Assembly: GCA_943789455.1 (NCBI GenBank)
Contig: CALSUE010000001.1
Coordinates: 623,001-687,000 of the forward strand
Direction of reading: 5' to 3'
Origin: an uncultured Flavobacteriaceae bacterium
GTDB lineage: Bacteria > Bacteroidota > Bacteroidia > Flavobacteriales > Flavobacteriaceae
DNA length: 64,000 nucleotides
Below are positions 7,334-57,321 of this stretch, piece after piece (position 1 is the first letter of the stretch; every line of letters begins with the position of its first letter). The translations under genes were made by a program, and so were the position numbers. The notes under the pieces were generated by a model. That model saw only the letters and a list, made by a program, of their open reading frames with translations, had not been told where the DNA came from and did not search any database.

Positions 7334-7469
7334 AGGATTTTGAATGATATTTAAAAAATAAACAACAAATAGGTTTGATTTAAAGAATAATAACGCAAAA
7401 AAGTGATATTACTAAGAATACCTTAAAAAAAACAAGCTTATAAAGGTTTATTTTATGAATACGATAAAA

Positions 7470-7805
7470 AAAGCAGACCAATAAGCCGGATTCTGTTCCC
7501 TTAATAGAGTCTTATCATTTATCTAGTTCTAAAATTACTCTTAGAATCGATCTGCCTACCCCTTAGAATCGGGCGAGTAACCCTCAAACTCTAATGTACA
7601 TGACATTGCACCGCACAGAGTTTACCTGGTTTCACTACAGCCGAACTGTACCTGCTTTCTGTTGCACTTGTCCTCAATTTACATTGGACGGATGTTATCC
7701 GCTGTGCTACTCTATGGTGTCCGGACTTTCCTCTTTTTAAAACTAATCTATCATACTATGTAAAAATAAATTAGGTTTTTAAAAGCGATAAGATAGGTCT
7801 GCTTT
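7470..7805 (-). ncRNA. rnpB: RNase P RNA (class A)
   Basis: Minus strand carries GAGGAAAGTCCGGACACCATAG and ACAGAATCCGGCTTATTGGTCTGCT; P1 ends AGCAGACC/GGTCTGCT are complementary; followed by T7. Confidence 0.95.
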
Positions 7806-9096: not shown

Positions 9097-9633
9097 TTAT
9101 GATTGTCCAATAACTACTTTAGGGTAGCGTATGATTTTGTCTCCTAACTTATAACCTTTCTCAACAGCATCGATTACCTTACCTTTTAACTTATCTGATG
9201 GTGCAGGTATTTGTGTAATGGCTTCATGAATTTCGGCATCAAATACATCTCCTTTATTCACTTCAATTTCGGTTAATCCTTTTTGAGTAAGTGTATTTTT
9301 AAACTTATCATTAATTAATTGCATTCCTTTTAAAAGCTCTTTGTCTTTTACCTTCTTAATTTCAGTTAAACCTCTGTCAAAATCATCCATGATTGGCAGT
9401 AAAGATGTCATAAGCTCTTGACTGGCAGTCTTAAATAATTCTATTCTTTCTTTTGAAGTTCTTTTTTTATAATTCTCAAACTCAGCAAAAAGACGTAAAT
9501 ATTTATCTTTCTCTTGCTGAATAAGTTCCTCAGAAGTTGGCTTAACTTCATCAATATCTTGGTTTTCATTAACTTGAGGATTATTCTCTGAATCTTTTAT
9601 TTCTTCTTCTTGTTTGTTTTCTTTAGTACTCAT
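9097..9633 (-). CDS. grpE: Nucleotide exchange factor GrpE
   Basis: RLFAEFENYKKRTSKERIELFKTASQELMTSLLPIMDDFDRGL...GYKLGDKIIRYPKVVIGQS. Confidence 0.95.
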   Translation of the reverse strand: MSTKENKQEEEIKDSENNPQVNENQDIDEVKPTSEELIQQEKDKYLRLFAEFENYKKRTSKERIELFKTASQELMTSLLPIMDDFDRGLTEIKKVKDKELLKGMQLINDKFKNTLTQKGLTEIEVNKGDVFDAEIHEAITQIPAPSDKLKGKVIDAVEKGYKLGDKIIRYPKVVIGQS

Positions 9634-9665: not shown

Positions 9666-9682
9666 TTCAATAATTTTGCCAA
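9666..9682 (-). promoter_or_regulatory. Sigma54-like promoter motif TTGGCAAAATTATTGAA upstream of grpE
   Basis: Plus strand TTCAATAATTTTGCCAA; same GG-N10-G(A) spacing as motifs at 46635 and 56511; predicted start ~9655, ~22 nt before grpE. Confidence 0.55.
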
Positions 9683-46543: not shown

Positions 46544-46634
46544 ACTATAAGTCAACTTAATTTTAAAATAATTTATTGTTTTGAGATATAACTTGATATT
46601 ACATAAATTTTAAAAATTAAAAAAATAATGTCTT

Positions 46635-46651
46635 TTGGCATAATAGTTGAA
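46635..46651 (+). promoter_or_regulatory. Sigma54-like promoter motif TTGGCATAATAGTTGAA in the lipA/dipeptidase intergenic region
   Basis: GG-N10-G(A) spacing; same motif at 9666 (minus) and 56511. Confidence 0.5.
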
Positions 46652-46657
46652 TTGAAG

Positions 46658-46691
46658 TTTTTATAAATCTTGATTATTTGATTTATAAAAA
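46658..46691. repeat. Perfect 12-bp inverted repeat, 10-nt loop
   Basis: TTTTTATAAATC / GATTTATAAAAA. Confidence 0.85.
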
Positions 46692-46742
46692 GTAATTTGA
46701 TTAGTTTTAGTAAAAAAAACCATCTTTAAGGGATGGTTTTTT
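46662..46742 (+). ncRNA. Candidate small RNA (about 80 nt), promoter-hairpin-terminator unit
   Basis: Start predicted from the sigma54-like motif; ends at an intrinsic terminator; no ORF. Confidence 0.35.
46714..46742. terminator. Bidirectional intrinsic terminator
   Basis: AAAAAACCATC-TTTAAGG-GATGGTTTTTT. Confidence 0.85.
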
Positions 46743-46767
46743 GTTTACATTCAATAATCTAACTATT

Positions 46768-54995: not shown

Positions 54996-55085
54996 ATGAT
55001 GAAAGCAGAGTTAAAAACACCTAGTAAAAATTACAAAAGTGATGAAGACTTTGCTCAATCAAGAAATAAAAACAAAAGATTATGA
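54996..55085 (+). CDS. Possible 29-aa micro-ORF between argS and lpdA
   Basis: MMKAELKTPSKNYKSDEDFAQSRNKNKRL*; 2 nt after argS stop, stop overlaps lpdA start (ATGA). Confidence 0.35.
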   Translation: MMKAELKTPSKNYKSDEDFAQSRNKNKRL

Positions 55086-56470
55086 AATACGATATTATCA
55101 TTGTTGGTAGTGGTCCTGGAGGATATGTTACCGCCATTAGAGCCTCTCAATTAGGTTTTAAAACAGCTGTAGTAGAAAAAGAAAGTTTGGGTGGTGTTTG
55201 TTTGAATTGGGGTTGTATTCCTACAAAAGCATTATTAAAAAGTGCTCAAGTTTATGAATACCTAAAACATGTAGATCAATACGGCTTAAAAGCCGAGTCT
55301 ATTGATAAAGATTTTGAAGCCGTTATAAAAAGAAGTCGTGGTGTTGCAGAAGGAATGAGCAAAGGAGTTCAATTTCTAATGAAAAAGAATAAAATTGATG
55401 TTATAGAAGGTTTTGGAAAAGTTAAAGCTGGTAAAAAAATCGATGTAACTTCTAAAGATGGAAAACTCACTGAGTATAGCGCAAGTCATATTATTATTGC
55501 AACTGGAGCTCGATCTAGAGAATTACCAAATTTACCACAAGATGGAAAAAAAGTAATTGGTTACAGACAAGCAATGACTTTACCCTCTCAACCAAAATCT
55601 ATGATAGTAGTTGGTTCTGGAGCCATTGGGGTTGAATTTGCTTCATTTTATAATTCTATGGGTACAGAGGTAACAATCGTAGAATTTCAACCAACAATAG
55701 TACCCGTTGAAGATAAAGATATTTCAAAACAATTTGAACGATCCTTGAAAAAGGCTGGAATTAAAATTATGACAAACTCTTCTGTAGAAACTGTAGATAC
55801 GTCTGGTGCTGGTGTTAAAGCTACAGTAAAAACTAAAAAAGGAGAACAAAATTTAGAAGCAGATATTTTATTATCTGCAGTAGGAATTAAAACTAATATT
55901 GAAAATATTGGATTAGAAGATGTTGGAATTATAACAGATAGAGATAAAATTTTAGTCAATGATTGGTATCAGACTAATATACCCGGCTATTACGCAATTG
56001 GAGATGTAACTCCTGGACCTGCTTTAGCTCACGTTGCTTCAGCTGAGGGAATAACTTGTGTTGAAAAAATTGCTGGATTACATAGCGAAGTAATAGACTA
56101 CGGAAACATACCTGGTTGTACGTATGCTAGCCCAGAAATTGCTTCTGTAGGTCTAACAGAAGAACAAGCAAAAGAACAAGGATATGAATTAAAAGTTGGA
56201 AAATTCCCTTTCTCTGCGTCTGGAAAAGCAACCGCTGCTGGAACAACTGATGGTTTTGTCAAGGTGATTTTTGATGCAAAATATGGAGAATGGTTAGGTT
56301 GCCATATGATAGGTGCTGGTGTAACAGACATGATTGCAGAGGCAGTATTGGGAAGAAAACTTGAAACTACTGGACATGAAGTTTTAAAAACAATTCACCC
56401 ACATCCTACAATGAGTGAGGCAGTTATGGAAGCCGTAGCTGATGCTTATGACGAAGTCATTCATTTATAA
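55082..56470 (+). CDS. lpdA: Dihydrolipoyl dehydrogenase
   Basis: IIVGSGPGGYVTAIRASQLG, KESLGGVCLNWGCIPTKALLKSAQ, YAIGDVTPGPALAHVASAEGI, TIHPHPTMSEAVMEA. Confidence 0.96.
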   Translation: MKYDIIIVGSGPGGYVTAIRASQLGFKTAVVEKESLGGVCLNWGCIPTKALLKSAQVYEYLKHVDQYGLKAESIDKDFEAVIKRSRGVAEGMSKGVQFLMKKNKIDVIEGFGKVKAGKKIDVTSKDGKLTEYSASHIIIATGARSRELPNLPQDGKKVIGYRQAMTLPSQPKSMIVVGSGAIGVEFASFYNSMGTEVTIVEFQPTIVPVEDKDISKQFERSLKKAGIKIMTNSSVETVDTSGAGVKATVKTKKGEQNLEADILLSAVGIKTNIENIGLEDVGIITDRDKILVNDWYQTNIPGYYAIGDVTPGPALAHVASAEGITCVEKIAGLHSEVIDYGNIPGCTYASPEIASVGLTEEQAKEQGYELKVGKFPFSASGKATAAGTTDGFVKVIFDAKYGEWLGCHMIGAGVTDMIAEAVLGRKLETTGHEVLKTIHPHPTMSEAVMEAVADAYDEVIHL

Positions 56471-56477
56471 TAAAAAT

Positions 56478-56507
56478 AAAAAACCGAAGAAATATCTTCG
56501 GTTTTTT
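56478..56507 (+). terminator. Intrinsic terminator of lpdA
   Basis: AAAAAACCGAAGA-AATA-TCTTCGGTTTTTT. Confidence 0.88.
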
Positions 56508-56510
56508 ATT

Positions 56511-56527
56511 TTGGCATAGTTATTGAA
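56511..56527 (+). promoter_or_regulatory. Sigma54-like promoter motif TTGGCATAGTTATTGAA directly after the lpdA terminator
   Basis: Same spacing as motifs at 9666 (minus) and 46635. Confidence 0.5.
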
Positions 56528-56537
56528 ATATAATAGA

Positions 56538-56645
56538 TGTTATAAGTTTATGTTATTAATGTTTGTTTAAAACATTTTTGGGATTTATTGTAATGAGAAA
56601 GAATGAATTACCCCCTAAACCAAAGTTGATAGCTTTGGTTTTTGT
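56538..56645 (+). ncRNA. Candidate small RNA (about 110 nt)
   Basis: Motif-predicted start, hairpin AATGTTT-GTTTA-AAACATT (56558-56576), intrinsic terminator at 56617-56645. Confidence 0.35.
56617..56645 (+). terminator. Intrinsic terminator or attenuator
   Basis: AAACCAAAG-TTGATAG-CTTTGGTTTTTGTATTT. Confidence 0.65.
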
Positions 56646-56673
56646 ATTTAAGTTTTTATTTAATTAAATATCC

Positions 56674-56681
56674 TAAATTTG
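56674..56681 (+). promoter_or_regulatory. -7 element (TAAATTTG) for the membrane protein gene at 56713
   Basis: TAnnTTTG match ~32 nt upstream of start. Confidence 0.5.
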
Positions 56682-56712: not shown

Positions 56713-57321
56713 TTGATGATTCAAATAACAAATTATAAAGGATTTCTTAAAGAGATTCTAAAAGCCATTATTAAACTTTGTATTGCTGGGTTTCTTATCG
56801 GATTCTTAAAATCTAATGATGCTATAATAGCTATTATTTTACTTTTAAAAATTCTTCATGTTATTTATAAAAATATAATCATTGCTCAAACTAAAAACTG
56901 GATATTACTCATTGGAATGATACTAACTGGTTTTGGGGGATTACTTGGTGAAAACTGGGGTGTTCATAATAATTATTGGGAATATCATGAGGTTTCTAGA
57001 GAGCTTCCTCTATGGCTACCTTTTGCCTGGATGCTGGCTTTTTATTTTCTGTATAGCATAGAATCTAGAATGATTGAATTTTTAAAAAACAAAACCATGA
57101 GCAATAAGCTTATTATTGCATTTTGGTTGTCATTGTTTGTTCCTGCTTTTGGTGAAGTAATTACTATAAATTTAGGGGTATGGACTTATTATTGGCCCTA
57201 TCAACTATTTGGTGTTCCTCTCTATGCATTTATTTGCTTGGTTTTTGTTCACATGCTGGTATACGGAATATTATCTTTTGTATGTAAAAAATGGAAAATT
57301 AAGGACAATGTTTTTATATAG
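56713..57321 (+). CDS. Polytopic membrane protein of unknown function, possibly distantly like CruF/carotenoid-biosynthesis membrane proteins
   Basis: About 6 hydrophobic helices; GENWGVHNNYWEY and GEVITINLGVWTYYWPY motifs. Confidence 0.5.
   Translation: MMIQITNYKGFLKEILKAIIKLCIAGFLIGFLKSNDAIIAIILLLKILHVIYKNIIIAQTKNWILLIGMILTGFGGLLGENWGVHNNYWEYHEVSRELPLWLPFAWMLAFYFLYSIESRMIEFLKNKTMSNKLIIAFWLSLFVPAFGEVITINLGVWTYYWPYQLFGVPLYAFICLVFVHMLVYGILSFVCKKWKIKDNVFI

Follow-up and report, generated by a model that had tools for sequence, protein, structure and literature searches.

GlmY, Qrr and CrcZ are proteobacterial small RNAs (sRNAs) transcribed with sigma-54. To our knowledge, Bacteroidota have yielded few small RNAs so far. 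GlmY has been described as a sigma-54 sRNA (PMC7073468). In the literature searched, only one sigma-54-driven sRNA candidate of Bacteroidota was found, Rfp36, and a search for sRNAs of Tenacibaculum, whose members are common both on fish and in the sea, found none. According to the available text of PMC9723704, the start of Rfp36, a putative sRNA of Flavobacterium psychrophilum, has been mapped downstream of a sigma-54 (SM4) promoter, and Rfp18 of the same species is a conserved structured sRNA shown to affect protease mRNAs.

The locus described here, positions 56511-56645 of the window (the whole stretch of 64,000 nucleotides that was analysed), is very probably a stand-alone sigma-54 sRNA gene of a genus-wide family, with a product that most likely acts as a regulator in trans. 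It resembles GlmY, Qrr and CrcZ in the use of an alternative, activator-dependent sigma factor and in its intrinsic terminator, but it comes from another phylum and the sRNA has no Rfam match, 6S and GlmY included. With Rfp36 it has in common the flavobacterial origin, the −24/−12 promoter and a regulon containing lon, grpE, dnaK, gliding and envelope genes. Rfp36 was compared by its description in the available text, and homology appears unlikely at the sensitivity of our final model, R3, which has no convincing match outside the genus in 400 genomes. Rfp18 is likewise a conserved structured flavobacterial sRNA; unlike the present RNA, it is absent among the sigma-54 promoters in the available text of PMC9723704, the comparison again being one of descriptions.

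Organization of the locus

The unit and its neighbours consist of the following features.

55082-56470, plus strand: lpdA, dihydrolipoyl dehydrogenase (Pfam), upstream neighbour
56478-56507, plus strand: lpdA terminator hairpin, separate from the sRNA unit
56511-56527, plus strand: sigma-54 (RpoN) −24/−12 promoter TTGGCATAGTTATTGAA, with GG at 56513-56514 and TTG at 56523-56525
56538-56645, plus strand: predicted sRNA of ~108 nt, its start from the −24/−12 rule and its end at the T tail of the terminator
56539-56545, plus strand: 5′ strand of helix P1, GUUAUAA, at the predicted start (minimum-energy fold)
56558-56576, plus strand: apical hairpin P2, AATGTTTGTTTAAAACATT, a 7-bp stem of AAUGUUU and AAACAUU around GUUUA
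56578-56596, plus strand: conserved core UUGGGAUUUAUUGUAAUGA, comprising the GGGA internal loop and the P1 3′ strand
56588-56594, plus strand: P1 3′ strand UUGUAAU, inside the core
56597-56616, plus strand: linker GAAAGAATGAATTACCCCCT, candidate pairing (seed) region
56617-56645, plus strand: intrinsic terminator with an 11-bp stem and a 3-nt loop, then a T tail
56674-56681, plus strand: TAAATTTG, sigma-A type −7 box of the downstream gene
56716-57321, plus strand: downstream membrane-protein gene, conserved

The first-pass annotation, which did not name sigma-54, had placed TTGGCATAGTTATTGAA, the hairpin at 56558-56576, TAAATTTG at 56674 and a 24-codon open reading frame at 56593-56667, and all four match the sequence exactly. 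The terminator that it gave at 56617-56645 also stands; its stem, put at 9 bp there, has 11 pairs in our scan, G-C in three cases, within the hairpin AAACCAAAGTTGATAGCTTTGGTTT (56617-56641, an exact match at the locus), after which the T tail follows. It had further assigned the downstream gene an element of its own behind the terminator, and TAAATTTG is indeed a box of the sigma-A type. For the start of this gene, ATG 56716 is a better choice than TTG 56713; the ATG and the following codons are conserved in two homologues (L028 and L030), and the encoded membrane protein has no Pfam match.

Sigma-54 promoter and its regulon context

From its sequence, TTGGCATAGTTATTGAA is a sigma-54 −24/−12 promoter, from which transcription is predicted to start at 56538/56539 by the −24/−12 rule. 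It is read in this way because the genome has RpoN and enhancer-binding activators and carries the same motif before lon and grpE-dnaJ. The rpoN gene is accompanied by two strong matches to sigma-54 activators, further weak matches resembling other AAA proteins. GG at −24 and TTG at −12 are present at the fixed spacing; the −12 element of the window copy is TTGAA, with A in place of the canonical C, that of L030 is TTGGT, and the canonical TTGCA is found in L133 and L142. No sigma-A box of the form TAnnTTTG lies within 56500-56629.

Genome-wide, TTGGYAYN5TTGMW occurs 22 times, versus five occurrences of the reversed control pattern, an excess over chance. The five sites matching TTGGCATAN4TTGA are all intergenic and belong to the lpdA-linked unit, a unit at 46635, lon (L116), a lipoprotein gene and a locus designated L129. 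A near match, TTGGCAAAATTATTGAA, is located directly upstream of grpE-dnaJ (window 9666-9682, minus strand; grpE at 9097-9633, minus strand) and serves as a useful positive control for the motif. In F. psychrophilum, both lon and grpE-dnaJ have sigma-54 (SM4) promoters with mapped starts, and the sigma-54 regulon also covers other chaperone genes, dnaK, gliding operons and envelope genes, according to the portion of PMC9723704 that is available. At L129 (G000:C8:79386), no open reading frame of at least 80 aa was called within 500 bases downstream of the sigma-54-type site, and a short frame starting MNELTKKHETAKQNSIDFMRTGQ is found there.

Conservation of the unit downstream of lpdA

Homologous intergenic regions with covariation had been proposed as a check on the unit. 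Five further genomes carry it between lpdA and the same membrane-protein gene (G007/L028, G114/L030, G080/L133, G162/L142 and G160/L143), and covariation is found in helix P1, as described below. Invariant columns were counted in a six-way alignment (A12) of the window copy and these five homologues. The promoter is the most conserved segment, with 12/14 invariant columns in the −24/−12 element; TGGCATnGTTnTTG is invariant and the TGGCAT-N5-TTG spacing is fixed in all six. The terminator (19/27) and the core region 56578-56616 (19/39) follow, then the 5′ half of the RNA (11/39) and the spacer (1/13). Outside the unit, 7/40 columns of the upstream gap and 14/70 of the downstream gap are invariant. 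Within the linker GAAAGAATGAATTACCCCCT, ACCCC(C)UAA is conserved in the lpdA-linked group. The 24-codon frame is not conserved, since only two codons are left in L030 and the ATG is missing from L133. The unit thus has its own promoter, its own terminator and no conserved open reading frame, as a stand-alone sRNA gene should. The view of the first-pass annotation that about 110 nt here form an independent unit is borne out by the conserved sigma-54 promoter and terminator, by relatives at loci other than lpdA, and by L142 and L143, in which the lpdA terminator hairpin is absent but the sigma-54 motif and the RNA are retained.

A wider family in Tenacibaculum

Relatives beyond the lpdA-linked group were sought with two models built without the promoter, R1 and R2, the latter consisting of the 3′ core and the terminator. 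Both recovered the core UUGGGAUUUAUUGUAAUGA, and R2 drew in further loci at E 1e-5 to 1e-3. A distinct R2 set (L144, L145, L146, L150-L152, L154, L164 and L167, together with the slightly weaker L168 and L194) carries YGGYAYN5TTG at a matching distance from the RNA. Many other R2 matches, at E 1e-4 to 1e-2, were dropped on inspection as they contained only AAACCGAAG-type terminators. A plain DNA search across relatives likewise returned mostly terminator look-alikes and one true homologue.

Going by gene identities read from the sequences, most of the other loci converge on the 3′ end of an ABC-F (ettA-like) gene; among the neighbours of the rest are a LytTR regulator and a gene for a secreted thioredoxin-like protein. 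The lpdA-linked and ettA-linked groups are tied by moderate R2 scores (1e-5 to 1e-3) and a common layout; L144 (G098) is also downstream of lpdA and thereby links the two. The family architecture comprises the sigma-54 promoter, P1, the apical hairpin, GGGA, UUGU, an A-rich single-stranded linker and the terminator. The linker differs between the groups, CCCC being present only in the lpdA-linked one.

The final model, R3, combines promoter and core without the terminator (17 sequences, 5 pairs). It matches 48/168 Tenacibaculum genomes, usually once per genome, and among the species sampled from the genus at least one in four carries the family; the window copy scores only E 9.4e-4 with this model, which was trained on 17 members. 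Matches in T. lutimaris DSM 16505 and Tenacibaculum sp. MAR_2009_124 have positions identical to those in G142 and G059, respectively. In a family-level sample of 400 Flavobacteriaceae genomes, three from Tenacibaculum and ~397 from other genera, R3 found the source genome itself (G000) and one genome of another genus (G242). The G242 match (L239) looks false: a coding gene follows the sigma-54-like site there, and the locus is not a relative.

Rfam yielded nothing credible for the sRNA unit at gathering and relaxed thresholds, and no family for 11 related loci. The sole gathering-level match in the window is a class A RNase P RNA at 7466-7805 (minus strand). The family looks like a new regulatory RNA family absent from Rfam. 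Comparison between genomes shows the promoter, the unit boundaries, the family and the common fold, and on this basis we regard the locus as a real, ordinary-looking, undescribed sRNA gene of the sigma-54 regulon. One genome also carries a tandem second copy, L262 (G148:C1:464438-464539), ~760 bases before the main copy and without the −24 GG, which we regard as a decayed or differently driven paralogue.

Fold of the RNA

Folded separately, most members adopt a common plan. The 5′ strand of P1 is UUAACA, UAACAA or GUUAUAA, and its partner after GGGA is UGUUAA, UUGUUA or UUGUAAU. For most members, these independent folds have P1 beginning at the predicted start or only a few bases away from it. 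This placement relative to the sigma-54 start is kept despite very different intervening sequence, which argues that the start is right. P1 strands bind their own partners better than those of other species (mean −4.85 versus −4.15 kcal/mol, permutation p 0.015, 22 clusters), and none of 300 shuffles was as good as own-partner binding. The structure is therefore backed by covariation in P1, with a weak signal in single folds: taken one by one, most members have a 5′ fold that surpasses its shuffles by a modest margin only. Terminator-free folds of the 22 clusters have a mean z of −0.66 (Stouffer z −3.1), the terminator-free part of the window copy reaching −3.0. The fold of 56538-56650, with the 5′-hairpin part and the terminator, has a z of −2.6, its stability coming mostly from the terminator. 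The sequence of P2 varies freely among members, and L133 has a different stem, CAAAAUAC/GUAUUUUG. An alternative consensus fold, AUAAGUUUC/GGGAUUUAU, derived from three sequences, was set aside, since P1 has the support of L133 and of the wider family.

Proposed function and alternative readings

From this organization we infer transcription, its start site, the type of activator and a mode of action. Sigma-54 RNA polymerase, after opening by one or other of the two enhancer-binding activators, would initiate at 56538/56539 and stop at the terminator near 56645, producing an RNA of ~108 nt that is conditional through its activator-dependent promoter. The 5′ end would fold back into the P1 closing helix, the P2 hairpin and the GGGA internal loop, leaving the conserved single-stranded linker, which ends in ACCCCCUAA, exposed before the terminator stem; the fold would shield the 5′ end and the terminator the 3′ end. 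Most likely the RNA regulates mRNAs post-transcriptionally, acting in trans with the linker as its base-pairing segment. The RNA would belong to the flavobacterial sigma-54 response, which involves protein quality control, the envelope and gliding, and would add a non-coding arm to this stress and gliding regulon. The family has a defined promoter, fold and pair of ends as well as six tight homologues, and so offers a concrete RNA for knock-out.

The complement of the linker seed, TTAGGGGG, occurs at 33 sites in the genome; one of the 30 examined is 33 nt before a start codon, which is about the chance level. This single candidate target, L299 (G000:C3:164808), has TTTAGGGGGT 33 nt upstream of a 491-codon gene for a secreted protein; 10 bases of this site are complementary to ACCCCCUAAA in the sRNA.

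Since the seed search revealed no clear mRNA partner, and the conserved GGGA internal loop and the A-rich linker are possible protein sites, the RNA might instead act by binding a protein, by titration or as a decoy in the manner of GlmY. We consider this unlikely, though worth keeping in mind: there is no known protein partner for the sRNA, and the linker sequence is not common to both groups, CCCC being restricted to the lpdA-linked one.

Members outside the lpdA-linked group (L144-L267) have an ATG at +16 to +23 that opens a frame of 9-20 codons, in one case 30 codons, with peptides mostly of the form M(K/R)NYLL... and also MQLSIT.... The position of this micro-ORF is kept, and its changes are mostly non-synonymous. 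With its ATG at ~+20 and its stop near GGGA, it could mark a dual-purpose family, in which translation would open the P1/P2 fold and control RNA activity, the peptide itself being irrelevant; the lpdA-linked group, the window copy included, would have lost the frame and kept the RNA. We rate this as rather improbable.

Another reading takes the region as a leader or attenuator of the membrane-protein gene at 56716, at which sigma-54 transcripts would stop or read through. The same gene does follow in each of the six lpdA-linked genomes, and wherever its start is clear it begins within ~75-80 bases of the terminator, but it has its own TAAATTTG box and no alternative anti-terminator fold was seen. 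The leader reading is quite improbable because most of the other members examined point into the 3′ end of the convergent ABC-F (ettA-like) gene, where there is nothing to attenuate.

Still less probable is a short-peptide mRNA. The micro-ORFs invite such a reading, but their substitutions are mostly non-synonymous (54 versus nine codons), with the second position most changed. In three other members an ATG is missing at this position, and the window copy offers only MLLMFV in place of such a frame, its 24-codon frame not being conserved. A peptide gene is thus unlikely in the window.

Finally, an lpdA 3′ UTR processing product, which the first-pass annotation had raised against its own reading and which would fit the constant adjacency to lpdA in the lpdA-linked clade, is barely credible because the unit outlives loss of the lpdA terminator and also occurs elsewhere, away from lpdA; the lpdA terminator precedes the unit, and the high conservation of the promoter also argues against it.

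A second candidate downstream of lipA

The predicted stand-alone sRNA gene downstream of lpdA has a candidate counterpart elsewhere in the window:

46634-46745, plus strand: second sigma-54-type sRNA candidate, downstream of lipA

The two units had been described as having the same layout, and the comparison bears this out: the six genomes with the lpdA-linked unit also conserve TTGGCATAATAGTTGAA, which is at 46635 in the window. The promoter TGGCAYARTASTTGAA, the 3′ block TTATTTGATTTWTAAAA...ATTAGTTTTA and the terminator are all kept in these genomes. The lipA-linked and lpdA-linked RNAs have the promoter type in common, and their sequences are unrelated.
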